A stretch of DNA of 62,145 nucleotides from Myxococcaceae bacterium (GTDB lineage Bacteria > Myxococcota > Myxococcia > Myxococcales > Myxococcaceae). This document shows, piece after piece, positions 31,785 through 46,005 of the stretch; position 1 is the stretch's first letter, and every line of letters begins with the position of its first letter. The position numbers were made by a program, and so were the translations under genes. The notes under the pieces were generated by a model that did not search any database, was not told the DNA's origin, and worked only from the letters and a program-made list of their open reading frames with translations. The stretch lies in NCBI GenBank assembly GCA_016926755.1, contig JAFGNZ010000002.1, positions 1 to 62,145 of the forward strand, written 5' to 3'.

Positions 31785-31995
31785 ACTCTGATGGGCCTGC
31801 CCTCAATGGGCAGCGGGCGCCATAAGTAGAGTAGTTCTGCTTTCCCGGCAACTATGCAATACCACGGTAAAAATGGTACCTGGGTCAAGCTAGTAAAGGC
31901 TGGATTTCACTGATTCGAGGGAGTGCTAACAAGCAGGGAGGCGGCGCGCACGCCAATTGCGCCTTGTGGGGGAGGCTCGCTAAAGGTGCGCCACC

Positions 31996-32967
31996 ATGGC
32001 GCCTGGCCTGCTCGAGACCTTTCGCATCCTGTCCTCCTTTGCTCCGCCGCGCGTCTCGCTGCGAGGCGCGCCGTGGGAGCAGTACGTGGACTGGGCGATT
32101 GCCCAGGGGCTGGCGGCGCTGGCGGCCTACAACCTGGAGTACCGGCTGGCGGGAGCGGATGCGCCGGAGTGGGCGAGGGACCGGCTGCTCTCCATCTACC
32201 AGGGCTCCGTCAACGACAACGTGATGAAGCTCGTCAACTTCAAGCAGACGGTGGACGAGCTGGAGGGCCGCAAGCTGCTGCTGCTGGGGGGCGCCGCGTT
32301 CGCGGAGGCGCTCTACCCGCACGTGGGGTTCCGGCCGGTGCTGGACATCCAGGTGCTGCTGCGGCGGGTGGACGTGGAGGGCTTCGCGGGCTTCCTCTCG
32401 CAGAGCCACTTCAAGCCGGAGAAGGACGAGACGAACAGCGGCGCGGCGCGCGTGGTGAGCGACGGGCGCACGGCCATCTACCTCTTCGCGGACGTGCTGG
32501 GCGCCCAGCGGCGCGCGGAGCTCCAGGGCGTGTTCGACCGAGCCCTGCCCATGAAGGTGTACGGGCCGTCCATCTTCCGGCCGGAGCTGGAGGACGCGGT
32601 GCTGCTGCTGTGCCTGGAGCACGCGCGCCAGGGCTACCAGGTGCCGTGGCTGTCCTTCGTGGATCTGCGCGAGCTGGTGACGGGCGCCACCTTCATGGGC
32701 GGCGTCTACTCCCGGCGGCTGGAGGTGGCGGCGCTGCGGGAGCGCGCCCGGGCGTGGCGGCTGGAGCGCGCGCTGTACACCTCCCTGTCCATCCTCGAGC
32801 GGCTCTTTCCGGAGACGGCGGCCAGCGTGGAGGCGGCGCGCCCGCCGCTGCGCCGCGCCACGCGGGAGCTGCTGAACCGGCTCGTGGTGGAGCCGGTGAG
32901 CGTCCCGGGGAGCCGAGGGGTGCTGCGGGGGGCGGATCGCCTCCGCCGGCTGCTCACCGGGCAGTGA
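31996..32967 (+). CDS. NTP_transf_5-like protein with a degenerate active site
   Basis: The protein has 323 residues and the overall layout of the NTP_transf_5 nucleotidyltransferase family: a helical start, a central RKLLLLGGAAFAEALYPHVG followed by FRPVLDIQVLLRRVD, and a helical C-terminus with LLLCLEHARQGYQVPWLSFVDLREL. In the intact paralogue at 16386 the corresponding motifs are VLKGSALARRLYPEP and SDVDLLV. Here the Lys of the KG motif is replaced by Leu and the second metal-binding Asp by Gln, so nucleotidyl transfer is unlikely as for its relative. It may be a regulatory or scaffold pseudoenzyme. It starts at an ATG after AAAGGTG and lies 102 bases before ugd on the same strand. Confidence 0.7.
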   Translation: MAPGLLETFRILSSFAPPRVSLRGAPWEQYVDWAIAQGLAALAAYNLEYRLAGADAPEWARDRLLSIYQGSVNDNVMKLVNFKQTVDELEGRKLLLLGGAAFAEALYPHVGFRPVLDIQVLLRRVDVEGFAGFLSQSHFKPEKDETNSGAARVVSDGRTAIYLFADVLGAQRRAELQGVFDRALPMKVYGPSIFRPELEDAVLLLCLEHARQGYQVPWLSFVDLRELVTGATFMGGVYSRRLEVAALRERARAWRLERALYTSLSILERLFPETAASVEAARPPLRRATRELLNRLVVEPVSVPGSRGVLRGADRLRRLLTGQ

Positions 32968-33069
32968 GCCCCTGCCCGCCTCCCGGGCGGGCGGCGGGGT
33001 AGCGGGCTCTGGCTTCCCCTCACCGCGCTCCCAGGGTAGACGGGGAGCGCCAGTCGCCACGGGAGTCTC

Positions 33070-34371
33070 ATGCGCATCGCCATCATCGGAACGGGCTACG
33101 TCGGGCTCGTCGCGGGTACCTGCTTCGCGGACTCGGGCAACGACGTCACCTGCGTGGACATCGACGAGCGGAAGATCCGCGCGCTCCAGGCGGGCGAGGT
33201 GCCCATCTACGAGCCGGGCCTGGAGGAGCTCATCCGCAAGAACGTGCGGGAGCGGCGGCTGGCCTTCACCACGCAGCTGGCCGAGGCGGTGGGGCCGGCG
33301 CAGGTGGTGTTCATCGCCGTGGGCACGCCCGAGGGCGAGAGCGGGGACGCGGACCTGCAGTACGTGCTGGCGGCCGCGGAGCAGATCGGCCGTGCCCTGC
33401 GCCAGTACACGGTGGTGGTGGACAAGAGCACGGTGCCGGTGGGCACCGCGGACGAGGTGCGCGAGGCGCTCTCACGGGTGACGAAGGTGGAGTTCGACGT
33501 CGTCTCCAACCCCGAGTTCCTCAAGGAGGGGGCGGCGCTGGAGGACTTCCTCAAGCCGGATCGCGTGGTGATTGGGGCGGACTCCGAGCGGGCGCGCCGG
33601 CTGATGGGCGAGCTGTACGCGCCGTTCGTGCGCACGGAGAACCCCATCTTCTACATGGACACGCGCTCGGCGGAGCTGACGAAGTACGCGGCCAACGCCA
33701 TGCTGGCCACGCGCATCTCCTTCATGAACGACATCGCCGCGCTCTGCGAGAAGGTGGGCGCGGACGTGGACTTCGTGCGCAAGGCGCTGGGCGCGGACCG
33801 GCGGATCGGCTACCCGTTCCTCTTCCCGGGCGTGGGCTATGGCGGCTCATGCTTCCCCAAGGACGTGAAGGCGCTGGTGGCCACCGGGCGGGAGCACGGG
33901 CTGGAGCTGGAGCTGCTGCGCGCGGTGGAGCGCACCAACGAGCGGCAGAAGCGGCTGCTGGTGGGCAAGGCGCTCAAGCACTTCGGCGGCTCGCTGGCGG
34001 GGCGGACGTTTGGCGTGTGGGGGCTGGCCTTCAAGCCGAAGACGGACGACATGCGCGAGGCGCCCTCGATCGAGGTGATTGAGGGGCTGCTGGGCAAGGG
34101 CGCGAAGGTGGTGGCGCATGATCCGGTGGCCGAGCGCTCCGCGGGGCGCTACTTCGGGGAGCGCATCCGCTACGCGGCGCTGCCCTACGAGGCGCTGGAG
34201 GGCGTGGACGCGCTCTTCATCGTCACCGAGTGGAACGAGTTCCGTCACCCGGACTTCGAGCGGATGAAGCGGCTGATGAAGGCGCCGGTCATCTTCGACG
34301 GCCGCAACATCTACGATCCAGCCCGCATGCGCGAGCTGGGCTTCACCTACCAGGGCATCGGCCGCCCCTGA
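33070..34371 (+). CDS. ugd: UDP-glucose 6-dehydrogenase
   Basis: The protein has 433 residues, the full family length. It oxidises UDP-glucose twice with NAD to UDP-glucuronate, the precursor of acidic polysaccharides and pentose/Ara4N sugars. The N-terminal Rossmann fold starts IAIIGTGYVGLVAGTCFAD. The substrate domain has SNPEFLKEGAA and TKYAANAMLATRISFMN. Cys261 in GYGGSCFPKD is the catalytic cysteine that forms the thioester. The C-terminal UDP-binding domain has VWGLAFKPKTDDMREAPS. It belongs to the second polysaccharide block, with the O-antigen ligase/TPR gene downstream and a small lipoprotein gene inserted on the other strand. Confidence 0.96.
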   Translation: MRIAIIGTGYVGLVAGTCFADSGNDVTCVDIDERKIRALQAGEVPIYEPGLEELIRKNVRERRLAFTTQLAEAVGPAQVVFIAVGTPEGESGDADLQYVLAAAEQIGRALRQYTVVVDKSTVPVGTADEVREALSRVTKVEFDVVSNPEFLKEGAALEDFLKPDRVVIGADSERARRLMGELYAPFVRTENPIFYMDTRSAELTKYAANAMLATRISFMNDIAALCEKVGADVDFVRKALGADRRIGYPFLFPGVGYGGSCFPKDVKALVATGREHGLELELLRAVERTNERQKRLLVGKALKHFGGSLAGRTFGVWGLAFKPKTDDMREAPSIEVIEGLLGKGAKVVAHDPVAERSAGRYFGERIRYAALPYEALEGVDALFIVTEWNEFRHPDFERMKRLMKAPVIFDGRNIYDPARMRELGFTYQGIGRP

Positions 34372-34394
34372 GCGGAGGAGGGGCTCCCGAGAGC

Positions 34395-34673
34395 TCAGCG
34401 GGCCAGGCCGCAGGCCACCTTGCCCTCGTTGGTCTCGATGGCCTCGCAGGTGCACTGCTCGTTGGTCAGGAGCTCCTCGCACCGGGCCTCGTCCTCGGAG
34501 GCGGGGTCCACGAGGGCCTCGTCGTTGGCGGCTCGGCGGAGGCAGAACTCGCGATCGAGGGAGTTGGTGAAGCAGTCGCACAGCTTCTCGGACAGCTCGC
34601 GGCAGGAGCCTTTGCAGCCAGCGAGGCCGAGGAGGGCGAGGGACATCACGGCGGTTGCGACGAGGCGGCGCAT
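34395..34673 (-). CDS. Small Cys-rich lipoprotein
   Basis: The protein has 92 residues with a signal ending in LGLAGC (lipid Cys20). The mature 70 residues carry eight more cysteines: 24, 32, 34, 44 and 65, 74, 76, 88. The two sets have nearly the same spacing (C-x7-C-x-C-x9-C and C-x8-C-x-C-x11-C), so the protein looks like an internal duplication of a disulfide-locked mini-module; otherwise it is acidic. No family is recognised. It is convergent with ugd (23 bases) and divergent from the O-antigen ligase gene at 34839. A weak inverted repeat (CTGAGC/GCTCAG, 34368-34398) spans the convergent stops. Confidence 0.7.
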   Translation of the reverse strand: MRRLVATAVMSLALLGLAGCKGSCRELSEKLCDCFTNSLDREFCLRRAANDEALVDPASEDEARCEELLTNEQCTCEAIETNEGKVACGLAR

Positions 34674-34838
34674 GGGCTGCGGAAGATGCCAGAAGCCACC
34701 CTGGATGCAAGCCGCGTTGCGCTCGGAGCGTTGGGCCTTGGGCGTCCGCGCCGCCCGCCCGCCCGGCCACCGGGGAGGCCCCGAGGCCCCAAGGGAGGAG
34801 GCTTTCCCTCCCACCCATGCGATAATCCAGGCCCCTTC

Positions 34839-37457
34839 ATGACCTCCGCTTCTCGCCGCACCTCCCGGTTCAGCCTTGGCGCCGAAGCGACGCTGGCGGT
34901 GCTGGTCGTGCTGTGCCCCCTGGCGCTCGGCGGAGCGGCGACGTGGGTGCTCTGGCCGCTGGTGGGGCTGGGGACGGTGGCGATCCTCCTGGCGGGGGTG
35001 GGGGCGCACCGGCAGGGCCACGCGCTGCACGTGCCGCTGCTCGCGCTGCCGCTGGTGGCGGGCGCGGCGCTCTGTGGGCTGCAGCTCCTCCCGCTCCCGG
35101 CGGGGCTGCTGGGGGGCGTGAGCCCGGAGGCCGCCGCGCTGCGCGAGTTCGCGCTCGTCCCCCTGGGGCTCTCGTCCGCGCGGCCCGTCTCGCTGGATCC
35201 ACCGGCCACCTGGCGCGAGCTGTCCCGGCACCTGGCGTACGCGCTGGTCTTCGTGGCGGCGGTGGAGGTGTGCCGCTCCCGGCGCTCGCGGCGGCGGCTG
35301 CTGGCCACGCTGGCCGTCACGGGCGCCGGCGTGGCGCTGCTGGGGCTGCTGCACGCGCTGCTGGGCCTCACGTCCCTGCTCGGGATTCGGGCCTATGCCC
35401 ACGCGCAGCCGCCCCTGGTGACGCCGTTCGGCAACCCCAACCACCTGGCGGGCTTCCTGGGGCTGTGCTCCACGGTGGCGCTGGGGCTGGCGCTCTCCAG
35501 CGAGCACCGGGTGCGCGGAGTGCTGTTCGGAGCGGCGGCGCTGCTCTCGGGGGCGGGGGTGCTGCTCTCCCTGTCTCGGGCGGGGATCTTCTTCTTCCTG
35601 CTGGGACAGGCGGTGCTCGCGGTGTGGCTGCTGCGTCAGCGCCAGGCGTCTCGAGGGCAGGCGCGGGGGTTGGCGGCCTGGGGCCGGGGCGGCGCCGCGC
35701 TGCTGGTGCTCGGCGCGACGCTGGCGGTGGGCGGCTACGTGGCCTGGGAGAAGCTGGTGGCGGAGGCGCAGAGCGCGGACAGCGTGGAGGAGCTGCGCCG
35801 CGGCAAGCTGGACGTGTGGCCGATGATGGCGGAGGCCGCGCGGGCGTTTCCGGTGCTGGGCATGGGCCGAGGGGCCTTCGAGGCCGCCTTCCCGCGCTAC
35901 CAGACGGAGCCCAACCCGAACACGCTGACGCACCCGGAGAACGCGGCGCTGCAGCTCGGGGCGGAGTTCGGCGTGCCGGGGCTGGTGCTGCTGGCGGTGA
36001 TGCTGTGGGGCTTCCTGCGGCTGCTGCGCCGCGAGCGACTGGGGAGCCTGGAGCTGGCGGCGCTCGCGGGAGTCGCGGCGCTGGGGCTGCACAACCTCTT
36101 CGACTTCAGCCTGGAGCTGCCGGCGTGCGCGGTGGCGGTGCTGGTGGCGCTGGCGGCGGTGGCCCGGCCGGAGGAGCGAGAGGGCACGGTGGTGGCCCGA
36201 GGGGCCTGGAGGCTGCCCGCGACGCGTGGGATGGCGATCGCTGGTGGGCTCGCGGTGCTAGCGGGGGTGGCGCTCGTGCCGGGGCGGCACACGCTGGCGA
36301 CGGCGGAGGAGGAGCTGGCGGGGCTCCTCCGGGCGCGCGCGCCGCTGGCGGAGGTGCGGGCGGCAGCGCTGGTCCTGATTGATCAGCACCCGGCGGACTA
36401 CCTGCTCCATGGCCTGGTCGGCTCGGCGTACGCGGCGGGAGGGAAGGGGACGGCGGGGGAGGCGCTGGCGTGGGTGAACCGGGCGCTCTACCTGCGGCCG
36501 CTGGACGCCGCGTCACACCGCACGGCGGCGAGATCCCTGCTGGCGCTGGGGCGTCGGAGCCAGGCCTTCCTGGAGTACCGGTTGGCGTACGAGGCCGGGG
36601 ACACGGAGGTGCTGGTGCGCGAGGCGGTGGGGCAGGCGCGCGCGCTGGAGGAGCTCCAGGCGCTCACTCCGAATTCGCCGCGGCGGGTGGCGGAGCTGTC
36701 GCTGTCGCTGGCGTCGCGGCCGGGGCGCCAGGAGCAGGCGCTGGCGTGGCTCACCTGGGCCCGTGAGCACTTCGCCGAGGCGCGGGACGTGCGCGCGCTG
36801 TGGGAGCAGGAGGCGCGGCTGCGCCTGGTGCGCGGGGAACTGGCCGAGGCGGAGGCGCTGTGCGCGGAGCTGGAGCGGCGAGCCCCGGAGGCGCTCGAGC
36901 CCCAGCTGCTGCGCGCGGAGATCCTCCGGGCGCAGGGACGGCGTGAGGAGTCGATCCATCTGCTGGAACGGCTGCTGCCGCGCTTCCCGGGGCAGGTGGG
37001 GTTGTCGTTCATGCTGGCGACGCAGCTGCTGGAGGCGGGGCTGACGCGGCGTACGAGGGAGGTGCTCCAGCAGGCCAGCCCCTTCATCACGGACTATGGG
37101 CAGCGAGCGCGGCTGCTGTCGCTGGAGGGGGCATCCTACGAGCGCGAGGGGCTGCTCTCGAGAGCGCTGGAGCGGTACCAGACAGTGGCGCGGCTGGTGC
37201 CCGCGGCGGAGGCGCACTTCACGGTGGCGCGGTTGCAGGAGTCCCTGCGCCGCTACGGAGAGGCGGCGAGGGCGGTGCGCGAGGGGTTGCAGCTGCTGCC
37301 CGCGGGAGCACGGCAGGATCGGGAGGCGTGGGTGGCGCGGCTGGAGGCCGAGGAGCGGAAGCTCCTGGAGGCGCGGCGGGAAGAGCTGATGGGAGATCCA
37401 CAGAAGCAGGACGTGGTGGAGCACCTGCTGGAGACCACCTCCGATACACCCCCGTAG
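34839..37457 (+). CDS. O-antigen ligase-like membrane protein with TPR tail
   Basis: The protein has 872 residues. The first about 490 contain some 12 membrane helices of the Wzy_C/O-antigen ligase type. The long periplasmic loop carries GNPNHLAGFLGL, SLSRAGIFFF, then LGMGRGAFEAAFPRY, NTLTHPENAALQLGAEFGVPG and HNLFDFSLELP, all typical of WaaL/PilO-type ligases, where conserved Arg and His residues act. From about 500 to the end are helical TPR-type repeats (for example RALYLRPLDAASHRTAARSL and EALEPQLLRAEILRAQGRRE). This ligase-TPR fusion is common in bacteria exporting EPS. It would join or polymerise the undecaprenyl-linked glycan at the periplasmic face. The ATG at 34839 directly precedes the first helix. 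Confidence 0.85.
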   Translation: MTSASRRTSRFSLGAEATLAVLVVLCPLALGGAATWVLWPLVGLGTVAILLAGVGAHRQGHALHVPLLALPLVAGAALCGLQLLPLPAGLLGGVSPEAAALREFALVPLGLSSARPVSLDPPATWRELSRHLAYALVFVAAVEVCRSRRSRRRLLATLAVTGAGVALLGLLHALLGLTSLLGIRAYAHAQPPLVTPFGNPNHLAGFLGLCSTVALGLALSSEHRVRGVLFGAAALLSGAGVLLSLSRAGIFFFLLGQAVLAVWLLRQRQASRGQARGLAAWGRGGAALLVLGATLAVGGYVAWEKLVAEAQSADSVEELRRGKLDVWPMMAEAARAFPVLGMGRGAFEAAFPRYQTEPNPNTLTHPENAALQLGAEFGVPGLVLLAVMLWGFLRLLRRERLGSLELAALAGVAALGLHNLFDFSLELPACAVAVLVALAAVARPEEREGTVVARGAWRLPATRGMAIAGGLAVLAGVALVPGRHTLATAEEELAGLLRARAPLAEVRAAALVLIDQHPADYLLHGLVGSAYAAGGKGTAGEALAWVNRALYLRPLDAASHRTAARSLLALGRRSQAFLEYRLAYEAGDTEVLVREAVGQARALEELQALTPNSPRRVAELSLSLASRPGRQEQALAWLTWAREHFAEARDVRALWEQEARLRLVRGELAEAEALCAELERRAPEALEPQLLRAEILRAQGRREESIHLLERLLPRFPGQVGLSFMLATQLLEAGLTRRTREVLQQASPFITDYGQRARLLSLEGASYEREGLLSRALERYQTVARLVPAAEAHFTVARLQESLRRYGEAARAVREGLQLLPAGARQDREAWVARLEAEERKLLEARREELMGDPQKQDVVEHLLETTSDTPP

Positions 37458-37498
37458 GGCTCTGGGAACGGTACTTCGACGGTGCTAGCCTGAATGGC

Positions 37499-38155
37499 AT
37501 GGGCAATCGGAAACGCGGCAGGAATGCTTGCATGCTGCCCGCGCTGACCTGCCTTGCCTTACTGGGGTGCGCCAGCAGCGCGCGGCAGGGCGAGGGCACA
37601 GACTACGGGTTCGAAGGAAACCCTGATCGGGTATGGGTCAAAGGCCCTTGGGAGGCCATCAACCCTTCCCACGATATTGATGCAGTCATCGATCAGCTAT
37701 GCCCGGCGGTCATGGGCCTGCCCCGGGCCCGGGAGAGGGACTTCGGCCAGGAGTATTGCGGCGTCATCTACAAGCTTCTCAGCGAAGACAAGTATTACGC
37801 GAGCAAGCCCTCTCCGCTGGGCAGAGCCATTCTGAGCGGTGACAGCAAGCGCAAGACCTGCCTCATCCCCAGGAGAGTCAGGGACTCGCGTGGGGCGCTC
37901 AGGCCTGATGCCGACTTTCATGGGCACCCATGGTTTCCGTCTGGCATGAGCAGGGAAGACAGGATGGGCCAGAACCAGTGGTACATGTTCCGCATCCAGT
38001 TCGACACGGCGTGCCGTGTCCAGAAGCTCGTGCCTCATGTTGACAGCGATCGTCCGGCGGAATTGTATGAGCGTCAGGGACAGAGTTGGAGGCTGGTGGG
38101 GCACATCCTCCCTGAAGACAAGGGGCTTGGCTATGTCACCACCGTGCATGATTGA
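37499..38155 (+). CDS. JAB/JAMM-like lipoprotein
   Basis: The protein has 218 residues with a signal and lipobox LLGC (Cys24). The mature part fits a JAB1/MPN metalloprotease pattern: Glu85 and Cys87-Gly88 in QEYCGVIYKLL (the family opens with ExCG), then HGHPWFPSGMSRED, which places His141 and His143 as zinc ligands, Ser148 (or Ser151) and Asp154. The basic segment between them and the C-terminal strands (CRVQKLVPHVDSD) fit the same fold. A lipid-anchored JAB protein is unusual, since most act inside the cell on ubiquitin-like or phage-tail proteins. It could cleave a peptide outside the inner membrane. The gene is less GC-rich than its neighbours and is followed 39 bases later by another lipoprotein gene, so the two are probably one unit. 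Confidence 0.6.
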   Translation: MGNRKRGRNACMLPALTCLALLGCASSARQGEGTDYGFEGNPDRVWVKGPWEAINPSHDIDAVIDQLCPAVMGLPRARERDFGQEYCGVIYKLLSEDKYYASKPSPLGRAILSGDSKRKTCLIPRRVRDSRGALRPDADFHGHPWFPSGMSREDRMGQNQWYMFRIQFDTACRVQKLVPHVDSDRPAELYERQGQSWRLVGHILPEDKGLGYVTTVHD

Positions 38156-38194
38156 CCATCCGCGAACCACCTCTCTCTCCCAGCGGGGGAACTC

Positions 38195-39007
38195 ATGAGG
38201 TATGGGCTTGCCTTGCTGCTGTGTCTCATGCTTGCTGCATGCGCGCGCAAACACACTGCGGTTCGCTATGTCCCACCGGAGGAGGCTGCTTGGTTCAAGT
38301 TCAAGGGCTCGTTTCCGGAGGAAGGGCGGCAGGCGATCCCTGGTCCCATGGTTGTCGCCATGCAGGCTGCCGCCAATCACTTCCTCTCCTGGGAGGCGCG
38401 CATTCCCCACGGAGCGGATGCTGTCGACATCTGCATCCGGCAGCGTCAGGCCTGGGATGTGGAGATCGTGTCGTGGGACGAGCAGGCCATGCTGGTCCGA
38501 TTCGCCTTGAGTCCTGGAGCATGTCGGTGGGGCGGAGCGCCGCTCTTGGACATGGGCACTACCTACGCCGTGCGCGCGCACGATGGGCACATCCTGGCAA
38601 GCTCCAGTTCCGCGCCTCCGCCTGAAAGCGCTGCACCGGTCCAACTTCCTCCAGAGCTTCCTCGGCAGGGTCTGCAAAGCATTGAAGGCAACTCAGCCGC
38701 TGCCATCCAACTGGCCGCGGAAGCTTTTGTAGGTCAGTTGCCGCGCACAGCCGAAAACCCTTCGAATGAAGAGGCATGCCTGGCCCGGCTGGGATCCTAT
38801 GATGTGACGGCTGTCTCCGAGCCTGGGGGAGTCGCGCTGGTTCGCTTCGATGTCGACGATGAGCGATGTCCGCCGCCTGGCCCAGTTGACATGGTGGAGG
38901 GTAGAAGGGTCCTCGCCCCTGCGTTCGTCACCACGTATGCCATTGACATCCGGACGATGCGGATCCTCGGCATAGATCTCTCCACGCGACAGCGCGTCGT
39001 GGAGTGA
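38195..39007 (+). CDS. Lipoprotein with duplicated two-cysteine domain
   Basis: The protein has 270 residues and a lipobox LMLAAC (Cys16). The mature protein consists of two copies of one domain (about 52-134 and 166-250). Each has a helix (VVAMQAAANHFL; AAIQLAAEAFV), a first cysteine (Cys80; Cys185), WDV or YDV, a strand ending LVRF, a second cysteine exactly 30 residues after the first (Cys110; Cys215) and a closing YAVRAHDGHIL or YAIDIRTMRILG. The same domain occurs once in the lipoprotein at 9684-10136. I recognise no named family. It follows the JAB-like lipoprotein by 39 bases and is convergent with the glycosylase-like gene. The lower GC suggests acquisition. Confidence 0.75.
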   Translation: MRYGLALLLCLMLAACARKHTAVRYVPPEEAAWFKFKGSFPEEGRQAIPGPMVVAMQAAANHFLSWEARIPHGADAVDICIRQRQAWDVEIVSWDEQAMLVRFALSPGACRWGGAPLLDMGTTYAVRAHDGHILASSSSAPPPESAAPVQLPPELPRQGLQSIEGNSAAAIQLAAEAFVGQLPRTAENPSNEEACLARLGSYDVTAVSEPGGVALVRFDVDDERCPPPGPVDMVEGRRVLAPAFVTTYAIDIRTMRILGIDLSTRQRVVE

Positions 39008-39025
39008 GTGAGTGTGGAGGAAGGC

Positions 39026-39655
39026 TTACGCCGACGGATGCTTGTCGACCCTGATGGTGTACGCTCGCTCTGCCGACTCGCAGATGGCCCTGATGGAGCC
39101 AGTCACCTCCTCTTCCCACTCTGGAAAGCCACGACCGATCGCGACCACAAATATGAGACGCTCTGCCTGGGAAGATCCCACAATCGCCATGATCTCTTGC
39201 ATGAGATGATAAATGCAGTGGCATGCAGCTTCGTTGACCCGTATATCCTTCTTCCGGTCGACACGCTTCTGCAGACCCGAGTCTGCGTGGCAGCGGACCA
39301 GATTTGTTCTGTAGATGTTGTCATCGAGCCAGTCCAACCACCCGGCATCCACTCCCCTCAAATTCCTCTGACTCTTGTAGATCCGCTGCCCGGTGCTGCC
39401 GACGGCCGGCAGTCCATGACTGAACTCACGGTGGGAGGGTGATTCGCAGACGTAAATCAGTGAAATGCTCTGCCTGCTATCCTCCGGCCAGTTGGTGTGA
39501 ACGGGCACGCCCCGTACGCGAGCCAGCACGTCATTCCAGTTGCCGGTTCCACACTTTGAGGGGCAGTTGGAGCATATCTCCGAAGTCACGGGGGCAAATT
39601 CATAGAATCTCGAGTAGTTCGGGTTTTTGGGCGTCTGACGTTCCTTTACAGGCAT
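39026..39655 (-). CDS. Uracil-DNA-glycosylase-superfamily-like protein, short C-terminus
   Basis: The protein has 209 residues; the ATG at 39655 follows AGGGAG at good spacing. The layout matches iron-sulfur uracil-DNA glycosylases (families 4/5). Cys28 and Cys31 form the N-terminal C-x2-C pair; motif A is ESPSHREFSHGLPAVGSTG (71-89), where the family has a GxxPGxxExxxGxPFVG-like loop. NLVRC (Cys122) and the NEAAC segment (Cys145) supply the other two cluster ligands. A hydrophobic strand (RLIFVVAIG) follows. The protein ends DKHPSA: the family motif B begins with HPS, so the chain stops just after the catalytic histidine region, earlier than usual. Motif A is also divergent. It may be inactive, a DNA-binding relative or a truncated enzyme. 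The GC content is low for the window. Confidence 0.55.
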   Translation of the reverse strand: MPVKERQTPKNPNYSRFYEFAPVTSEICSNCPSKCGTGNWNDVLARVRGVPVHTNWPEDSRQSISLIYVCESPSHREFSHGLPAVGSTGQRIYKSQRNLRGVDAGWLDWLDDNIYRTNLVRCHADSGLQKRVDRKKDIRVNEAACHCIYHLMQEIMAIVGSSQAERLIFVVAIGRGFPEWEEEVTGSIRAICESAERAYTIRVDKHPSA

Positions 39656-39728
39656 AAGTGTCTCCCTCTGCAAGCCGTATGCGTTTTATGCGCGATATTG
39701 TTGTAAATGTCATTCTCGCCCGTATCTG

Positions 39729-39911
39729 TTACGACAGTTTGTCGAGCTTTGAGATCTCGCCCTCGGCAATCTCCCGATAGAGCGGCACAATCTCAACGGC
39801 GAGTACGTCACGCATCTGCTGGCGTGCCTCTTCGAGATCCCCAGCGGCCTGGAGTTCGTACATCCGGAACTCACCTACTCTTTGCATGGCCGACAGGTGC
39901 GAAGAGGCCAA
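39729..39911 (-). CDS. DUSAM-like C-terminal fragment
   Basis: The frame encodes 60 residues from a TTG at 39911; the nearest ATG is at 39887. The core RMYELQAAGDLEEARQQMRD followed by VLAVEIVPLYREIAEG strongly recalls the C-terminal end of DUSAM (DUF2379) proteins, which are found almost only in myxobacteria. Full-length members are at least twice as long. The frame is open upstream to within the end of the membrane-protein gene but no N-terminal part is present, so this is probably a truncated copy. It could be a short functional version. It lies between the membrane protein and the glycosylase-like gene, all on the minus strand. Confidence 0.45.
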   Translation of the reverse strand: MASSHLSAMQRVGEFRMYELQAAGDLEEARQQMRDVLAVEIVPLYREIAEGEISKLDKLS

Positions 39912-39946
39912 TCGGGTCGCATAGAGGCTGGAAGATCTTGCGGCGC

Positions 39947-41608
39947 CTACGTGCGCGGGCGCTGCTTCAGGACCGGCACCGAGCGCCAGAAAACCTCGAG
40001 CATCTCGATGTTCTCATCGTCCATGAGCGAGCGGAGCGCTCGGTCGACGTGGGACTCCTTGTCGAAGTCCACCGCGGCCTCCGGCTTCTTCACCCCGTAG
40101 GCGGGTAGCACCTCCAGGCTCGGAGGAGGCTCCAGCCGCTTCTTCCCCACCTCGATCAGCTCCGAGCCCGTCACCTCCGGAACCTCTGGGGCTGGCGGCT
40201 CGGGCGGCGAGGGAGCCTCCAACTCGGCCTGCTCGTGGCCGAACCGCTGGAGCGCGAGCCGCCGCCCGGCGATGGCGCCGCGGATGAAGAACTGCTCCCG
40301 CAACAGCAGCGCGTTGGTGCGCCCGACACGCTCGATGAGCAGGGCCTGATCCTGCCAGTCGCAGATCCGCTGCAGGCCGTAGACGGTGTTGAAGAAGATG
40401 CGCGCGGTGGGGGTGAACGCCAGCGCGTGCACGGAGTCGATGCGCTCCTCGGCCAGCCGCGCGGCATCCTCCTCGCTCAGGCCGTCGATGACGCTCATGT
40501 CCGAGACCACGGGCGAGGAGAAGCCTTCGAGCCCCAGCAGGCTCGCGGCGCGGCTGGTCACCAACCTCAGCATCCGCTCCCCGATCAGCGCCACCGCGAT
40601 GCCGATGAGCAAGGCTCCCGTGCGGCCACTCAGCGGGTTGGCAACGGGCGGAGGGGTGTTGCCGGGCGGCGGCGCCTCCCGCGGAGCGGCGATCTCCTCC
40701 GAGGCAGCAGCCTCGGCGGGCCGCTCGCTGCCCTCCAGGAAGAGGGCGCCGAAGAACAGGGCGCAGATGGAGACGATCAACAACGTCCGCGAGGCCCGGG
40801 CCATCATCCGCGCGGTGGCGTCGTTGCTCGCCGAGCGGAAGAAGATCTGCCCCTGGTGCAGGGTGAAGGAGATGGTCGCCGCGGTCGCCACCGCGAGCGC
40901 GGGGTAGTCCCGCTCCGCGACCCAGATGGCCGAGCACGTGATGAGGATGCAGGAGGCCAGGAAGCCCAGGATCGCCGCGTGGCGCCCCATGCGGTGGATG
41001 GAGCCTTCCATGATCTCCCGCTCGTACTCCCAGTTGGCCTGGGCGTGCCTCACGAGCTCCGCGGCGTGCCTCTTCCCCCCGAAGAGGGAGGGGTTGACCT
41101 CGAAGGCGAAGTCCCCGCGCGCCATCCGCCGCTCCACCAGGAGCGAGACGCCGAGCGTCATGAACGCGGGCGTCGAGGACAGGCACAGGATGCCCAGCAA
41201 CGTCACCGACACTCCCCCGAGCGTGGCGTCCTTGTCGAACGGCGGGTGCACCTTCATCACGTGGTAGGCGATGAGGAGGATGGCGCCCAGCAGGAATACC
41301 AGGGCGGGCTTCACCAGCGAGGGCGCGACCGCCGCGGCCGTCTTCGCGACGGCGAGCCACTGCTCCTCCACATGGGCGCGGAGGTTGTACCAGTACGTGA
41401 GGGCGAGGACGAAGAGGCCGGCCACGATGGCGATCGCCACCTTGAAGTACCAGGGCAGCTCGTTGCGGAAGGTCTCACCCAGATCGCTGGTCGCCAGGGA
41501 CCAGGTGCTCACCAGCAGCGCGAAGATCACCAGGCCATTCAGGGATGGCTCGAGCCAGCGCAGCGGGTTGCGCTTCGACTTGGGGAGGTCGGGTGGCTCT
41601 GCGCTCAT
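39947..41608 (-). CDS. Multi-pass membrane protein of unknown function
   Basis: The protein has 553 residues and starts at an ATG after GGAG. It has two helices near the N-terminus (LNGLVIFALLVSTWSLA; VAIAIVAGLFVLALTYWY), two in the next 100 residues, two more around 220-260 (AAILGFLASCILITCSAIWV and the following), one near 290 and one near 330. A short Pro-rich insert lies before the last. The C-terminal 200 residues are soluble, with DGLSEEDAARLAEERIDSVH resembling a helix-hairpin-helix turn and a long helix (LLLREQFFIRGAIAGRRLAL). I recognise no family. It is the first of three minus-strand genes in the accessory patch and lies 55 bases before the end of astB. Confidence 0.75.
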   Translation of the reverse strand: MSAEPPDLPKSKRNPLRWLEPSLNGLVIFALLVSTWSLATSDLGETFRNELPWYFKVAIAIVAGLFVLALTYWYNLRAHVEEQWLAVAKTAAAVAPSLVKPALVFLLGAILLIAYHVMKVHPPFDKDATLGGVSVTLLGILCLSSTPAFMTLGVSLLVERRMARGDFAFEVNPSLFGGKRHAAELVRHAQANWEYEREIMEGSIHRMGRHAAILGFLASCILITCSAIWVAERDYPALAVATAATISFTLHQGQIFFRSASNDATARMMARASRTLLIVSICALFFGALFLEGSERPAEAAASEEIAAPREAPPPGNTPPPVANPLSGRTGALLIGIAVALIGERMLRLVTSRAASLLGLEGFSSPVVSDMSVIDGLSEEDAARLAEERIDSVHALAFTPTARIFFNTVYGLQRICDWQDQALLIERVGRTNALLLREQFFIRGAIAGRRLALQRFGHEQAELEAPSPPEPPAPEVPEVTGSELIEVGKKRLEPPPSLEVLPAYGVKKPEAAVDFDKESHVDRALRSLMDDENIEMLEVFWRSVPVLKQRPRT

Positions 41609-41662
41609 CAGGCTCCATGATGGCCGCCCCCCCTGGCGAGCGCAAAATTCCAGCGCCGCGCC

Positions 41663-42985
41663 TCAGCGCTGGAAGTCGTAGACGCTGCCGAGCTGGAGCA
41701 GGCGCGTCAGCTCGTCGAGCGCCGCCATCGTCTCGCGGGCGAGCTTCGGATCCTGCAGATCCGTCGGGTACAGCGTCTCGCGGTAGTGCTTCTTCACCCA
41801 CGCCGCGAGCGACTCGTGGAGGGCGGGAGAGTAGAAGACGTTGGCCTTCACCGCGGCGCGCTCGGCGTCCGTGAGCCAGATGCGCTGGCGCAGGCACGCG
41901 GGGCCGCCGCCGTTGTTCATGGACTGGCGCACGTCCAGGTAGTGCACCTTCTTGACGGGGTTGTTCTCGGCCACCACGCGCTCCAGGAAGCGCCGCGCGG
42001 GCTCCGTCTCCTGGCTCTCCACCGGGGCGATGATGGCCATGCTCCCGTCCGGCAGGGTGAGCACCTGGGAGTTGAATGGGTACGCCCTCACCGCGTCCCT
42101 CACCGGCAGCTCCGCCTGGGTGGCGACGATGGAGGTGAAGCCCTCGCCCAGCTTCTCGCGCAGGGTGCGCAGCAGGCCGGGGACGTCCGTGAACGCCAGC
42201 TCGTGGAGCATCAGGAAGCTGTCATTGCCCACCCCGAGCACATCCGTGTGGAAGGCCCCCGAGTCGATGCCCTCCGGGTGCTGCTGCGGGAAGAGGGTGC
42301 GCTCCGGATCCAACCGGTGCAGCCGCGCGAGCGCCTGGCTGGCCTCCAGCGTCTGCCGCGCGGGGAAGCGCTGGGGCCCGGCGATGTCCTTCCAGGCGCT
42401 GCGGCCCCACGCGAGCAGGTGCACCGCGGCGTGCCCGGGGGTGATGAGGCGGGTGTGGTTGGCCGCGCCCTCGTCCGCGAAGTGGCCGCCGCCGGGCAGG
42501 GGCGCGTGGACGGCGAAGTGCTGCTCGTCCGAGAAGATGGCGCGCAGCACGGAGTGCGTCGTCTCCGCCTCGATGGCACGGTGGAACATCTGCTGGAGGT
42601 TGGCGGGCGTCAGGTGCATCCGCCTGTCCCCCGTGTCCTCCGAGGGGGCGCAGGTGGCCGCGTTGGCCGTCCACATGGCGGCGGCGCTGGAGGTGAGCCG
42701 CAGCAGGTGCTCGCCCTCCTTCGCGGCGCGGGTGATGACCTCCTCGTCCGTGCCGGTGAAGCCCAGCATCCTCAGCGTCCTCAGCGAGGGGCGCGGCTGG
42801 GGCGGCAGCACGGCCTGGCCCACCCCCAGGCCCGAGACGAAGCGCATCTTCTCCAGCCCCTGGAGGGCCGCCTCGCGGGGGTAGCTGGCCTGGCCGCCAT
42901 GGCTCGTGGAGGCCAGGTTGCCGACCGAGAGGCCGCCGTAATTGTGGGTAGGACCGACGAGACCGTCGAAGTTGTACTCGCGCAT
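41663..42985 (-). CDS. astB: N-succinylarginine dihydrolase
   Basis: The protein has 440 residues, the family length. It removes two ammonia and CO2 from N-succinylarginine to give N-succinylornithine in the arginine succinyltransferase pathway. The N-terminus EYNFDGLVGPTHNYGGLSVG is the family signature, and the catalytic cysteine lies in NNGGGPACLRQR near the C-terminus. The conserved FHTDVLGVGNDSFLMLHELA and HLLAWGRSAW segments are present. I placed the start at the ATG at 42985, which gives MREYNFDG, matching the family. No other ast gene is in the window. The acyltransferase gene is divergent with only about 17 bases between starts, so the promoters must overlap the coding ends. Confidence 0.92.
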   Translation of the reverse strand: MREYNFDGLVGPTHNYGGLSVGNLASTSHGGQASYPREAALQGLEKMRFVSGLGVGQAVLPPQPRPSLRTLRMLGFTGTDEEVITRAAKEGEHLLRLTSSAAAMWTANAATCAPSEDTGDRRMHLTPANLQQMFHRAIEAETTHSVLRAIFSDEQHFAVHAPLPGGGHFADEGAANHTRLITPGHAAVHLLAWGRSAWKDIAGPQRFPARQTLEASQALARLHRLDPERTLFPQQHPEGIDSGAFHTDVLGVGNDSFLMLHELAFTDVPGLLRTLREKLGEGFTSIVATQAELPVRDAVRAYPFNSQVLTLPDGSMAIIAPVESQETEPARRFLERVVAENNPVKKVHYLDVRQSMNNGGGPACLRQRIWLTDAERAAVKANVFYSPALHESLAAWVKKHYRETLYPTDLQDPKLARETMAALDELTRLLQLGSVYDFQR

Positions 42986-43002
42986 TGGATATAGAACCGC
43001 CT

Positions 43003-43959
43003 GTGGAGCACCCACCCTTAGCAAAGCGCCTCAAGCGTTTCCTCCGCTACCTGCTCGTCCGGGCAGCGTTGGCCCTGGTCCACCCGATGCCCCTCGGGAT
43101 GGCGCGGTGGCTGGGTGTGCGCTTCGGGACACTGGCCTTCCTCGTGGCCGGCCGTGAGCGGCGCAAGGCGCTCGCCTCCCTCACCCGGGCCTTCCCGGAG
43201 AAGTCCGAGGCGGAGCGGCTCGCCCTGGCCCGCGCCTGCTTCCGCCACCTGGGCGCCGCCATGTTCGAGGTGGGGTGCACGGCCGCGCTGGACCGGGAGC
43301 TGCCGCGCCTCGTGGCCTGGCCCCAGGAGGACCGGCGCGTGCTGGAGGCGGCGCTGGCGCGGGGCAAGGGCGTGGTGTTCGTCTCCGGGCACGTGGGCAA
43401 CTGGGAGCTGCTGGCCCGGCGGGTGGCCTTCGAGGGCTTCCCCTGCCAGAGCATCGCCAAGGAGACCTCGGATCCGCGCCTCACCGCCCTGGTGGAGCGC
43501 TTCCGGGCGCGCGGCAGGGTGCGCAGCATCTGGCGCGGGCAGGACGGCGCGGCCCGGCACATGCTCCGCGCGCTGAAGAGCGGGGAGATCCTCGGGCTCC
43601 TGATCGACCAGGACACGAAGGTGCAGTCCTTCTTCGTGCCCTTCTTCGGGGAGCTGGCGGCCACGCCTCGGGCGGCGGCGGACCTGGCCATCCGCACCGG
43701 GGCGGCGGTGGTGGTGGGCTTCTGTCAGCGCGAGGGGGCTGGCTATCGGCTGAGCATGGAGGAGGTGCCCCTGCCGCCCGAGGAGGACCGGGAGGCGGCG
43801 GCGCTGGCCCTCACCGCGACGCTGTCGCAGCGCATCGAGGCGGCGATCCGCCGCGCCCCCGAGCAGTGGGTGTGGATGCACCAGCGGTGGAAGAGCCGGC
43901 CTGACCCTCAGGCCACGACACTGTCCACCGGAGCGGCAGCGCCCGCGCCCGCCCGGTGA
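43003..43959 (+). CDS. LpxL/HtrB-type lysophospholipid/lipid A acyltransferase
   Basis: The protein has 318 residues from the GTG at 43003; a TTG at 42985 would overlap the astB start codon and is less likely. An N-terminal hydrophobic helix (YLLVRAALALVHPMPLGMA) anchors it to the inner membrane. The catalytic H-x4-D/E motif is SGHVGNWELL. Further family features are IAKETSDPRLTALVERFRA, EILGLLIDQDTK with VPFFG, and the C-terminal EQWVWMHQRWKSRP. It would add a secondary acyl chain to lipid A. It sits 13 bases before lptC in the same direction, which fits a role in LPS assembly. Confidence 0.9.
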   Translation: MEHPPLAKRLKRFLRYLLVRAALALVHPMPLGMARWLGVRFGTLAFLVAGRERRKALASLTRAFPEKSEAERLALARACFRHLGAAMFEVGCTAALDRELPRLVAWPQEDRRVLEAALARGKGVVFVSGHVGNWELLARRVAFEGFPCQSIAKETSDPRLTALVERFRARGRVRSIWRGQDGAARHMLRALKSGEILGLLIDQDTKVQSFFVPFFGELAATPRAAADLAIRTGAAVVVGFCQREGAGYRLSMEEVPLPPEEDREAAALALTATLSQRIEAAIRRAPEQWVWMHQRWKSRPDPQATTLSTGAAAPAPAR

Positions 43960-43972
43960 TAGGAAGAGCCTC

Positions 43973-44518
43973 GTGCTTCGACGACTCGCGCTCTCCAGCC
44001 TCCTCGCCCTCCTGGCGGCCTGTGGCCCACGCTCGGGCTCGCAGGGCGCGTCCGAGGCGCAGCCTCAGGTGGTGCTCCACGGCGTGCAGCTCCAGTCCTT
44101 CGAGGGAGATCAGCTCGTCCTCGCCGGCCAGGCCGAGCGCCTCACCTACCAGCGCTCGCAGGGCGAGGCGACGGCGACCAGCGCCTTGTTGCGCCTGCCG
44201 GGCCGGCGGGACACCCAGCGCGCGCCCTCGGGGCCTCGGGGGGGCATGGAGATCCGCGCGCCGCGGATGGAGGGCAGCTTCGCCTCGCGCCAGCTCGAGG
44301 CCTCCGGAGGCGTCACCATCCGCACCGCGGAGGGCATGGTGGCGCGCACGCCGCGAGCCACGTACGACACGGCCGCCCAGATCGCCCGAGGGCGGGAGGG
44401 CGTGGCGGTGCGGGGGCCGGACTACGCCCTGCGCGCGGACAGCTTCGATCTGTCCTTCGTGGACGAGACGTTCACCTTCGAAGGCTCAACGCAGACCGTG
44501 GTGGGAGGGGCACAGTGA
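43973..44518 (+). CDS. lptC: LPS export periplasmic protein LptC
   Basis: The protein has 181 residues starting at GTG. It has the LptC/OstA-like beta-jellyroll pattern (VVLHGVQLQSFEGDQLVLAG, QLEASGGVTIRTAEGMVART, ARGREGVAVRGPDYALRADS). It passes LPS from the LptBFG extractor to LptA. Unlike E. coli LptC, which has a membrane helix, the N-terminus here ends in a lipobox (LLALLAACG), so the protein is probably a lipoprotein. Identification rests on fold pattern and on the lptA and lptB genes that follow with four-base overlaps. The lptF and lptG genes are not in the window. Confidence 0.85.
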   Translation: MLRRLALSSLLALLAACGPRSGSQGASEAQPQVVLHGVQLQSFEGDQLVLAGQAERLTYQRSQGEATATSALLRLPGRRDTQRAPSGPRGGMEIRAPRMEGSFASRQLEASGGVTIRTAEGMVARTPRATYDTAAQIARGREGVAVRGPDYALRADSFDLSFVDETFTFEGSTQTVVGGAQ

Positions 44519-45027
44519 TCGAGTTCCTGGCGATGGCCTTCTTCGTCGCGCAGCCCGCGACGCCCGCCGCGGCGGACGGTGGGACGCGTCCTCCGATGCT
44601 CGGGAGCGTGGCGCTGACCAACCCGGTGGAGATCACCGCGAAGCTCATCACGGGAGAGCGCAGCTCGGCGACGTTCACCGGGGACGTGCGGGTGAAGCAC
44701 CGCACGCTGGATCTGCGCTGCGACAAGATGATCGCCTTCTACACGGGCGCCCGCGAGGTGAAGCGGGTGGAGTGCACCGGGGGCGTGCAGGCCCAGGATG
44801 GGGACCGGTTCGCCCGGGGCGAGCGGGCCGAGTACGACGTGCCCAGCGGCGTGCTGGTGGTGACGGGCTCGCCGGAGGCCCGCCAGGGCGGCACGTACAT
44901 GACAGGGACGAAGGTGCGCCTCACGCTGGGCAGCGAGCGGCTGGAGGTGGAGAACGCCCGCATCCTCGTGGAGACGGCGCCCGGCGCTCCGCTCAGGAAG
45001 GGCAAGGGAGGCGCGAAGAAGCCATGA
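44515..45027 (+). CDS. lptA: LPS transport bridge protein LptA
   Basis: The protein has 170 residues and starts at a GTG overlapping the lptC stop (GTGA). A signal peptide (IEFLAMAFFVAQPATPAAAD) precedes the OstA-fold core: PVEITAKLITGERSSATFTG, VRVKHRTLDLRCDKMIAFY, VKRVECTGGVQAQDGDRFAR and GERAEYDVPSGVLVVTGSPE. These are the repeating edge strands with which LptA stacks into a bridge across the periplasm. The C-terminus is basic (GKGGAKKP). It is coupled to lptB by an ATGA overlap. Confidence 0.93.
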   Translation: MIEFLAMAFFVAQPATPAAADGGTRPPMLGSVALTNPVEITAKLITGERSSATFTGDVRVKHRTLDLRCDKMIAFYTGAREVKRVECTGGVQAQDGDRFARGERAEYDVPSGVLVVTGSPEARQGGTYMTGTKVRLTLGSERLEVENARILVETAPGAPLRKGKGGAKKP

Positions 45028-45767
45028 GCGGCGGCGCGCGGCTGTGGGCCGAGGGCCTCCAGAAGAGCTACCGCAAGCGCCAGGTGGTGCGCGGCGTCTC
45101 CTTCAACGTGGCCCAGGGCGAGGTGGTGGGGCTGCTGGGGCCCAACGGCGCCGGGAAGACGACGAGCTTCAACATGGTGGTGGGGCTCGTCACCGCGGAC
45201 GAGGGCCGCGTGCGCGTGGACGGCGCGGACCTGACGCACCTGCCCATGCACCGGCGCGCGCGCTCCGGGCTCGGCTACCTGCCGCAGGAGGCCTCGATCT
45301 TTCGCAAGCTCTCCGTGCGCCAGAACTTCCTGGCCGTGCTGGAGCTGCAGAAGGGGCTGGACCGCAAGGTGCGCGAGCGGCGGGCCCAGGAGCTGATCGA
45401 CGAGTTCGGCCTGGGCCACGTGGCGGACGCGCTGGGGGAGACGCTCTCCGGCGGTGAGCGGCGGCGCGCGGAGATCGCCCGCTCGCTCATCCCCAACCCC
45501 CGCTTCATCCTCTTCGACGAGCCCTTCGCCGGCGTGGATCCGATCAACGTGGGAGACCTCCAGCGGCAGATCGCCCTGCTCAAGCAGCGCGGGCTGGGGG
45601 TGCTCATCACGGACCACAACGTCCAGGACACCCTGGGCATCTGCGACCGGGCCTACATCATCGCCCAGGGGCAGATCCTCGAGGAGGGCACCCCCGCCGC
45701 GATCGCGGACTCGCCCCGGGCGCGCGCCGTCTACCTGGGAGAGCGCTTCCGCTTGCAAGCGCCGTGA
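45024..45767 (+). CDS. lptB: LPS export ABC transporter ATPase LptB
   Basis: The protein has 247 residues, the standard length. It powers extraction of LPS from the inner membrane with LptFG. The Walker A is GPNGAGKTT (39-47), the Q-loop region YLPQEASIFRKLSVRQN is typical of LptB, the signature is LSGGERRR, Walker B is FILFDEPFAGVDP, and the switch histidine is in ITDHNV. It begins at an ATG overlapping the lptA stop. The gene is followed by a 287-base leader containing a weak hairpin (GAGACC/GGTCTC, 45883-45899) and then rpoN. Confidence 0.97.
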   Translation: MSGGARLWAEGLQKSYRKRQVVRGVSFNVAQGEVVGLLGPNGAGKTTSFNMVVGLVTADEGRVRVDGADLTHLPMHRRARSGLGYLPQEASIFRKLSVRQNFLAVLELQKGLDRKVRERRAQELIDEFGLGHVADALGETLSGGERRRAEIARSLIPNPRFILFDEPFAGVDPINVGDLQRQIALLKQRGLGVLITDHNVQDTLGICDRAYIIAQGQILEEGTPAAIADSPRARAVYLGERFRLQAP

Positions 45768-45990
45768 AACCCGCCTCGAAGGCCCGCTGGACGCGCCGTC
45801 TGCAGAGGGGCCGAGCGAGCCTCGCCGCGGCCCGGAGTGTATATTGGCCCACCCTTTGCGTTGAGGCTTTAACAGCTTCTGAGAGACCCGGGAGGTCTCC
45901 TAAGTCCATGATTCAATTATGGAAATCAGATAATGCAAGCAAAGGGCCACGCTCTTGGGCACTAGACGAATGGAGGGGGTCTTGCTAGTT

Positions 45991-46005
45991 TGGCACGGTC
46001 CTTGA
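45991..46005 (+). promoter_or_regulatory. Sigma-54 -24/-12-like element before rpoN
   Basis: TGGCACGGTCCTTGA fits the -24/-12 consensus TGGCAC-N5-TTGC except for A in place of the final C. It lies 50 bases upstream of the rpoN start in otherwise non-coding DNA. The -12 GC is usually important, so activity is uncertain. Confidence 0.4.

Follow-up and report, generated by a model that had tools for sequence, protein, structure and literature searches.

A pair of adjacent genes in the genome of a Myxococcaceae bacterium (NCBI GenBank assembly GCA_016926755.1) on balance probably forms a two-gene toxin-immunity-like cassette of the family Myxococcaceae. The window analyzed (positions 1 to 62,145 of JAFGNZ010000002.1) is one entire contig (C144) of genome G000, and both genes lie on its forward strand. 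The first (37499..38155) encodes a predicted JAB/JAMM-family lipoprotein of 218 amino acids, here called JAB, which is the proposed toxin or self-harmful envelope hydrolase. The second (38195..39007), directly downstream, encodes a partner lipoprotein of 270 amino acids, here called B, which carries two partner domains in one chain and is the proposed immunity factor or inhibitor. The proposal draws on what can be read from sequence: near-obligate pairing of the two genes, conservation of the catalytic motif, a lipobox in both proteins, one-sided decay of JAB, an excess of B, and many unrelated insertion sites. An earlier note on this DNA had described the two genes and a convergent gene for a protein resembling uracil-DNA glycosylase (UDG) as one accessory patch, and all three open reading frames are present where it placed them.

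The JAB motif was followed in an alignment of 100 intact relatives; of the 132 sites known at that point, 32 were excluded because they were too short or broken. The residues that the earlier note had singled out (Glu85, His141, His143, Ser148/151, and Asp154) are present in the window's protein and are nearly invariant among these relatives. Glu85 (within EYCG; codon 37751..37753) is kept in 99 of them, and His141 and His143 (37919..37927), Ser148, and Asp154 (37958..37960) are each kept in all 100, while position 151 is Ser in 94 and Thr in 6. The residue between the two histidines is Ser in 84, Thr in 8, and Gly in 7, the window's JAB having Gly. The lipobox cysteine, Cys24 (37568..37570), is found in 97 relatives, a stricter lipobox pattern is found in 81, and C68, C121, and C172 are invariant. 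Whole proteins range from 171 to 375 amino acids with a median of 211, and profiles, model, and structural matches indicate that the JAB-type domain fills the whole mature protein.

Taken by itself, the window's JAB matches nothing in Pfam at E<=1. Among 43 family members searched at a lax limit of E<=10, Prok-JAB (PF14464) matches 37 (best 2e-6) and DUF4329 matches 23 (best 3.9e-4), the window's JAB giving no match to either. An AlphaFold2 model built with 61 alignment rows has a mean predicted local distance difference test score (pLDDT) of 89. Foldseek gave no match to this model at E<=0.001; its best row is DSY2949 (8e-3), followed by AF2198, BRCC36, AMSH/Sst2, and PfJAMM1, and rows 2 to 9 carry JAB1/MPN, JAMM, AMSH, or BRCC36 names with modest TM-scores. 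The earlier note had held that a predicted fold other than JAB would tell against its call, and the top rows are JAMM/MPN proteins. Because the profile matches of the relatives, the conservation of the motif, and the predicted fold all bear on it, the assignment of the first gene to the JAB/JAMM family is supported, with a catalytic role predicted. JAB thus shares the JAMM motif and the predicted fold with Prok-JAB/JAMM metallopeptidases such as AF2198, PfJAMM1, AMSH, and BRCC36, but differs from them in that it is exported and lipidated (by prediction), has invariant cysteines, and has a partner of its own. Most of the JAMM metallopeptidases that have been studied are cytoplasmic and act on ubiquitin-like tails.

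The duplicated domain that had been claimed for the second gene is real: a domain of about 125 amino acids is present twice, the family profile hitting the window's B over 124 and 109 of its 124 positions. The first domain with the signal peptide spans 38195..38620 (+) and the second 38621..39004 (+), where the part that starts near residue 141 is enough by itself to match single-domain relatives. In most relatives, B is one domain of about 125 amino acids (median whole protein, 140 amino acids). A lipobox pattern is present in 132 of 145 nonredundant B reading frames; ten of the 145, the window's among them, have two domains, and 16 intact sites have at least two B domains. When 79 members were compared with Pfam, six weak families appeared, none of them an immunity family and none in more than two members (best E 0.018, in two members). 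The model of the first domain (mean pLDDT 85) is a helix on a four-stranded sheet, for which Foldseek gave no match at E<=0.001. Its closest structural neighbor is a designed cystatin fold (4r80; Z 7.4, root-mean-square deviation [rmsd] 3.7, 71 residues aligned), followed by the C-terminal domain of YpeB (5boi; Z 6.5, rmsd 2.3, 63 aligned), 4hzb_C, one chain of the Tae3-Tai3 effector-immunity complex (Z 5.1, rmsd 3.7, 75 aligned), and NTF2-like domains near Z 5, all at values below 8 that may reflect merely a common arrangement. B is likewise one helix packed on an antiparallel sheet, as in cystatin, PepSY, and NTF2-like folds, but the similarity to 4r80 and 5boi amounts to just Z 6.5 to 7.4 over 63 to 71 residues, without sequence support. 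Cystatins and PepSY-type propeptides are protease inhibitors.

JAB and B form a conserved two-gene cassette of Myxococcaceae, with 143 unique JAB sites in 69 flank groups. The sites were merged from fetched loci that came from the best 150 matches, weaker ones mostly being left out. The number of groups is more likely too low than too high since some sites were merged too far; the downstream stretch used for grouping can include tandem or second B domains. In 118 of the 143 sites, both genes are intact, on the same strand, and with B directly downstream of JAB. With a single sequence as query, JAB is found in 53 of the 96 family genomes, each genome giving 0 to 9 matches, and named relatives that carry it include Myxococcus, Corallococcus, Pyxidicoccus, Archangium, Hyalangium, and Citreicoccus. 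The JAB profile matches 59 of 195 genomes of the phylum (58 of them Myxococcaceae, and one marginal outside), with up to 16 matches per genome when fragments are counted apart, and the B profile matches 62 of 193, all Myxococcaceae. Five records titled Comamonas sp. KCTC 72670 (BNCN01; L194, L218, L222, L230, and L251) contain myxobacterial genes and are probably mislabeled.

Divergent JAB subfamilies (28 to 47% identity where measured) are still paired with B. One such divergent pair lies in the window's own genome (contig C254; locus L344, 2742-3482 and 3250-3954, +). At loci L057 and L100, two JAB-B pairs of distant subfamilies stand convergent side by side, one JAB of L057 being a remnant. 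Across the 16 of 20 loci of 16 kb that were compared in full, the genes around the pair mostly differ, the few common settings being L076/L077 and L080/L081, with similar genes around L068 and L078. The earlier note had proposed conserved co-occurrence of its gene set as a test and neighbors differing in every relative as a refutation. The answer is divided: the pair itself recurs at 143 sites, whereas the genes outside it mostly change and the UDG-like gene occurs in 2 of 96 family genomes.

When the cassette decays, it does so from one side. JAB was counted as intact when one open frame ran from model position <=48 to >=135, and B when >=85 positions lay in one frame. By these rules, JAB is broken beside an intact B at 22 of the 143 sites, two of which (L057 and L273) entered through the B search, and an intact JAB stands beside a broken B at none. 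At L177, JAB is broken and a full B is lacking; a lenient rule scored L134 as intact JAB with partial B, but both of its genes are frameshifted; and L138, which is cut by the contig end within JAB, is the sole exception to the rule that an intact JAB always has an intact B. Since nearly all of the sites were found through a JAB match, the opposite case, a broken B beside an intact JAB, would not have been missed. The broken sites are spread over 20 of the 69 flank groups, and decay is one-sided in 19 of 19 groups (p about 1e-4 if breakage is proportional to model length, 202 versus 124, and the groups are treated as independent).

B also outnumbers JAB. The profile totals are 489 B matches versus 250 JAB matches with JAB fragments counted apart, and of the 62 family genomes with a B match, 56 have more B than JAB and 6 have equal numbers; scoring covered the 16 and 22 best candidates of each genome, a ceiling that was reached in G041, G187 was excluded, and the B count is raised by tandem and fused B domains. 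The window's genome has 17 B and 5 JAB profile matches. Among the best 150 B matches, 43 (at 40 sites) have no listed JAB within 2.5 kb. Nine of these sites were fetched, of which eight have no JAB match and one has a 36-residue remnant, while L057, from the same list, has a 28-residue remnant. In G074 (L269), the JAB signal peptide is joined in frame to B and the body of JAB is missing (compared by eye); G059 and G066, with the same upstream flank, carry JAB-B-B at this site. One-sided decay together with an excess of B is the pattern expected if JAB is costly without B.

The same pattern would arise if JAB were an envelope protease kept for the cell's own use, in predation, matrix turnover, or envelope maintenance, with B as its dedicated inhibitor or chaperone and neither protein being delivered to other cells. 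Since B would hold the protease in check, both pairing and a cost of losing B follow from this explanation, which predicts them equally well. It also agrees with the prediction that both proteins lie in one compartment and with the presence of a designed cystatin fold and the YpeB C-terminal domain among the structural neighbors of B. However, a housekeeping pair is not expected in 69 flank groups, nor with a number of matches that varies between genomes, from 0 to 9 in the single-sequence search and reaching 16 with the profile when fragments are counted apart. The pair also occurs inside prophage-like contigs, and at a given site it is present in only some relatives. Own use of this kind is therefore regarded as a serious candidate but a fairly unlikely one, and the reading of JAB and B as toxin and immunity factor is preferred.

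Evidence of movement comes from direct repeats around the cassette. Six of 139 sites score >=17, compared with none of 417 mismatched flank pairs (maximum 15). At locus L123 (G073), repeats of 42 nt at 95% identity (oriented positions 2034-2074 and 3344-3385) enclose an inserted piece of 1,269 bp that ends at the B stop codon. The corresponding empty site, with the flanks contiguous and an overlap of 37 to 49 nt, is found in 5 of 26 other genomes searched (L350, L351, L352, L354, and L356/L376); the remaining genomes diverge, break off, or carry another JAB-B copy. At L164 (G022), where JAB is broken, the repeats lie at oriented positions 1297-1328 and from 2513 onward, the inserted piece of 1,184 bp again has the B stop codon as its right end, and the empty site is found in 5 of 15 other genomes searched (L412, L413, L414, L415, and L417; overlaps of 32 to 33 nt). 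The inserted pieces hold nothing but the JAB-B pair, with no recombinase inside. At both sites, the repeats lie in intergenic sequence. A strong hairpin (-31.8 kcal/mol) is predicted for the L123 repeat. For the L164 target, a stem-loop can be made out by eye in the downstream copy and in the empty one; the upstream copy, which is truncated, gives a weak fold (-11.2 kcal/mol). A preference of insertion for terminators, drawn from two sites, is a lead only.

Other sites are less clear. At L135, upstream homology ends <=8 nt from the repeat in 19 of 19 loci compared, the downstream flank giving no match there that reached 100 nt. No clean empty site was found for L077, whose relatives have other sequence between the flanks. 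No 9-mer at the cassette ends exceeds shuffled controls among 91 upstream and 85 downstream nonredundant flanks. No target duplication was seen at the window's own cassette, which is outside the 30 best of the 139 sites and gave none in a separate look. In the Myxococcus group, a locus beside a gene for a 480-amino-acid protein (L350-L378) holds JAB-B copies or remnants in G073, G067, G066, G059, and G065 and is empty in others. Judged by these sequences, this locus is a recurrent insertion site.

It may be asked whether the pair is a minimal mobile element, consisting of a toxin gene and an immunity gene only, moved in trans by an enzyme of the host or of a phage, and served by membrane-contact transfer between kin. 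Such an element would have the stop codon of the immunity gene as its right edge and would insert downstream of genes, at or beside terminator hairpins, making unusually long target duplications (about 32 to 42 nt) though it encodes no recombinase. It would encode a JAB toxin that acts outside the cytoplasm, together with an immunity factor that is a lipoprotein. This is considered unlikely as a whole. Phages may provide another route of transfer because two prophage-like IMG/VR contigs (L252 and L253) carry the pair among phage-type genes. Five of ten IMG/VR neighbors scanned match PHROGs (RusA, sigma factor, replication initiator, tail, and HNH).

These two contigs, with the many copies scattered in genomes, could also be explained if the pair were an accessory of mobile elements, for example a lipoprotein module that changes the cell surface and so serves superinfection exclusion or anti-phage defense, while B limits self-damage. 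A defense role of this kind appears quite improbable. The pair has no match in PADLOC (all three window proteins and one relative were compared), Rfam, or the phage and plasmid collections, JAB being without a match among 50,697 phage records and 72,556 plasmid records, and the neighbors of the pair at the compared 16-kb loci look like ordinary chromosomal genes.

If JAB and B are a toxin and its immunity factor, JAB would be a zinc-dependent hydrolase of peptidase or isopeptidase type that acts at the envelope and harms cells lacking B. B would be a small cystatin/NTF2-like lipoprotein that binds and blocks JAB in the same compartment, and protection would be limited to those JAB variants with a matching B in the cell. 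The conserved cysteines and the lipid anchors on both proteins suggest action outside the cytoplasm, and an extracytoplasmic target is judged the more likely one, both partners being exported and lipidated by prediction. The most likely use would be contact-dependent antagonism among close relatives. In M. xanthus, a Lys at position +2 has been linked to retention of lipoproteins in the inner membrane (PMC3222651). JAB and B are both without +2 Lys and may thus be outer-membrane proteins, which for JAB makes delivery by outer membrane exchange plausible. By analogy with SitA lipoproteins, JAB might be passed between outer membranes, a step that is put forward tentatively and with some doubt.

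SitA/SitI pairs are among the closest known parallels. SitA proteins are myxobacterial lipoprotein toxins in six families (PMC5562445 and PMC8546572). As described there, SitA/SitI resemble JAB-B in that the lipoprotein gene comes first with its partner directly downstream, divergent copies are many per genome, and the genes lie on prophage-like elements and are known only from myxobacteria. In Mx-alpha prophages, sitBAI has a cargo position comparable to that of JAB-B in L252 and L253. JAB has the lipobox of a SitA-type toxin, with Cys24 in 97 of the 100 relatives. However, SitA has an N-terminal escort domain of about 375 amino acids and a C-terminal nuclease, the six described families all ending in nucleases that act in the cytoplasm (PMC8546572). 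In contrast, JAB has neither, its roughly 211 amino acids being filled by the JAB-type domain, and B, too, is a lipoprotein, while the toxin that SitI neutralizes works in the cytoplasm. Identity with SitA or SitB was rejected on the escort domain, the nuclease, and the type I signal reported for SitB (PMC5562445).

Zhang and coworkers (2012; PMC3482391) described Tox-JAB-2 (DUF4329; E, H[ST]H, S, and D), whose immunity protein (Imm-NTF2-2) has an NTF2 fold, and Tox-JAB-1, whose partner Imm65 is the sole lipoprotein immunity protein in their collection as presented, and they thought nuclease activity likely for JAB toxins. The present pair shares the motif, a small alpha+beta partner, and, with Imm65, the lipoprotein nature of that partner. 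Tox-JAB-1 and Tox-JAB-2 are modules of large secreted proteins such as RHS, whereas JAB here stands alone as a lipoprotein, and Pfam gives no clear match for B. The pair may thus work like SitA or Tox-JAB-2 but is neither of them because the escort domain, the nuclease, and the large-protein context are absent. A search of the literature on JAB/JAMM proteins in myxobacteria found no apparent description of the pair, and some SitA-family papers outside that search may mention it.

Several observations weigh against the toxin-immunity proposal. If B were transferred together with JAB, it might protect the recipient, which is a real difficulty for delivery between membranes. Delivery of SitA depends on TraAB, and the MYXO-CTERM matches of the window's genome did not pinpoint TraA. 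By pairwise identity, JAB gives no sign of a swapped toxin end, the mean being 54% over 96 JABs compared with 48% for their Bs. The excess and survival of B could instead reflect a separate function of B. Pfam gives no match at E<=1 for the window's JAB or B, and the assignment of B as perhaps cystatin/NTF2-like is weak (best Z 7.4). Outside the family, G187 has one marginal JAB match (E 8.9e-4) and no listed B.

The third gene of the patch (39026..39655, -) is a solitary UDG-like gene that is not linked to the JAB-B pair. Its product scores 17.4 bits against Pfam UDG, below the curated cut-off of 24.3 (E=0.005), and its cysteines (28/31, 122, and 144) presumably fit a cluster pattern like that of family IV. 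The cluster cysteines, which had been reported as intact, are so in the window's protein but need not be a conserved feature: for the G060 relative (33% identity), the alignment shows C31 and C122 but neither C28 nor C144. The sole phage or plasmid match is a protein annotated as uracil-DNA glycosylase family on a Vibrio parahaemolyticus plasmid (35.6% over 52%). A three-gene defense system, as the earlier note had proposed, would accord with the adjacency and shared low guanine-cytosine (GC) content of the genes in the window, but the UDG-like gene is convergent, is absent from the orthologous site in G040, is matched only in the window's genome and G060 among the 96 family genomes, and in G060 stands among unrelated genes. 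The gene was rejected as a third member and is, on this sequence comparison, a separate insertion; one system of three genes is hardly credible. Of the conflict or defense idea, the part that stands is the resemblance of the JAB-B pair to toxin-immunity systems.

The low GC content of the patch is borne out, with 57 to 66% in 1-kb windows over 37000-40500, whereas the rest of 30000-46000 is mostly at 68 to 76% with a further dip to 66% at 31000-32499. Upstream of the pair is an O-antigen-ligase/TPR gene (Wzy_C in Pfam), and downstream of the patch are a membrane-protein gene (39947-41608) and then a gene that we take to be astB-like. In G040, of the window's genus, the pair is at the same site between Wzy and astB. 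The membrane-protein gene stands next to astB in G041, where the pair is missing, and in G036-G039 both the pair and the membrane protein are missing. By flank, L035 fell into the window's group, yet its fetched stretch contains neither Wzy nor astB, an example of sites merged too far.

Myxobacteria tell self from non-self through large sets of lipoprotein toxins. If the proposal is true, the pair adds to these an envelope-acting JAB hydrolase with a lipoprotein antidote. It would also provide a test case for what JAB toxins cut, setting the nuclease idea against a target outside the cytoplasm. In addition, clean duplicated insertion sites without a recombinase raise the question of how toxin-immunity pairs spread.

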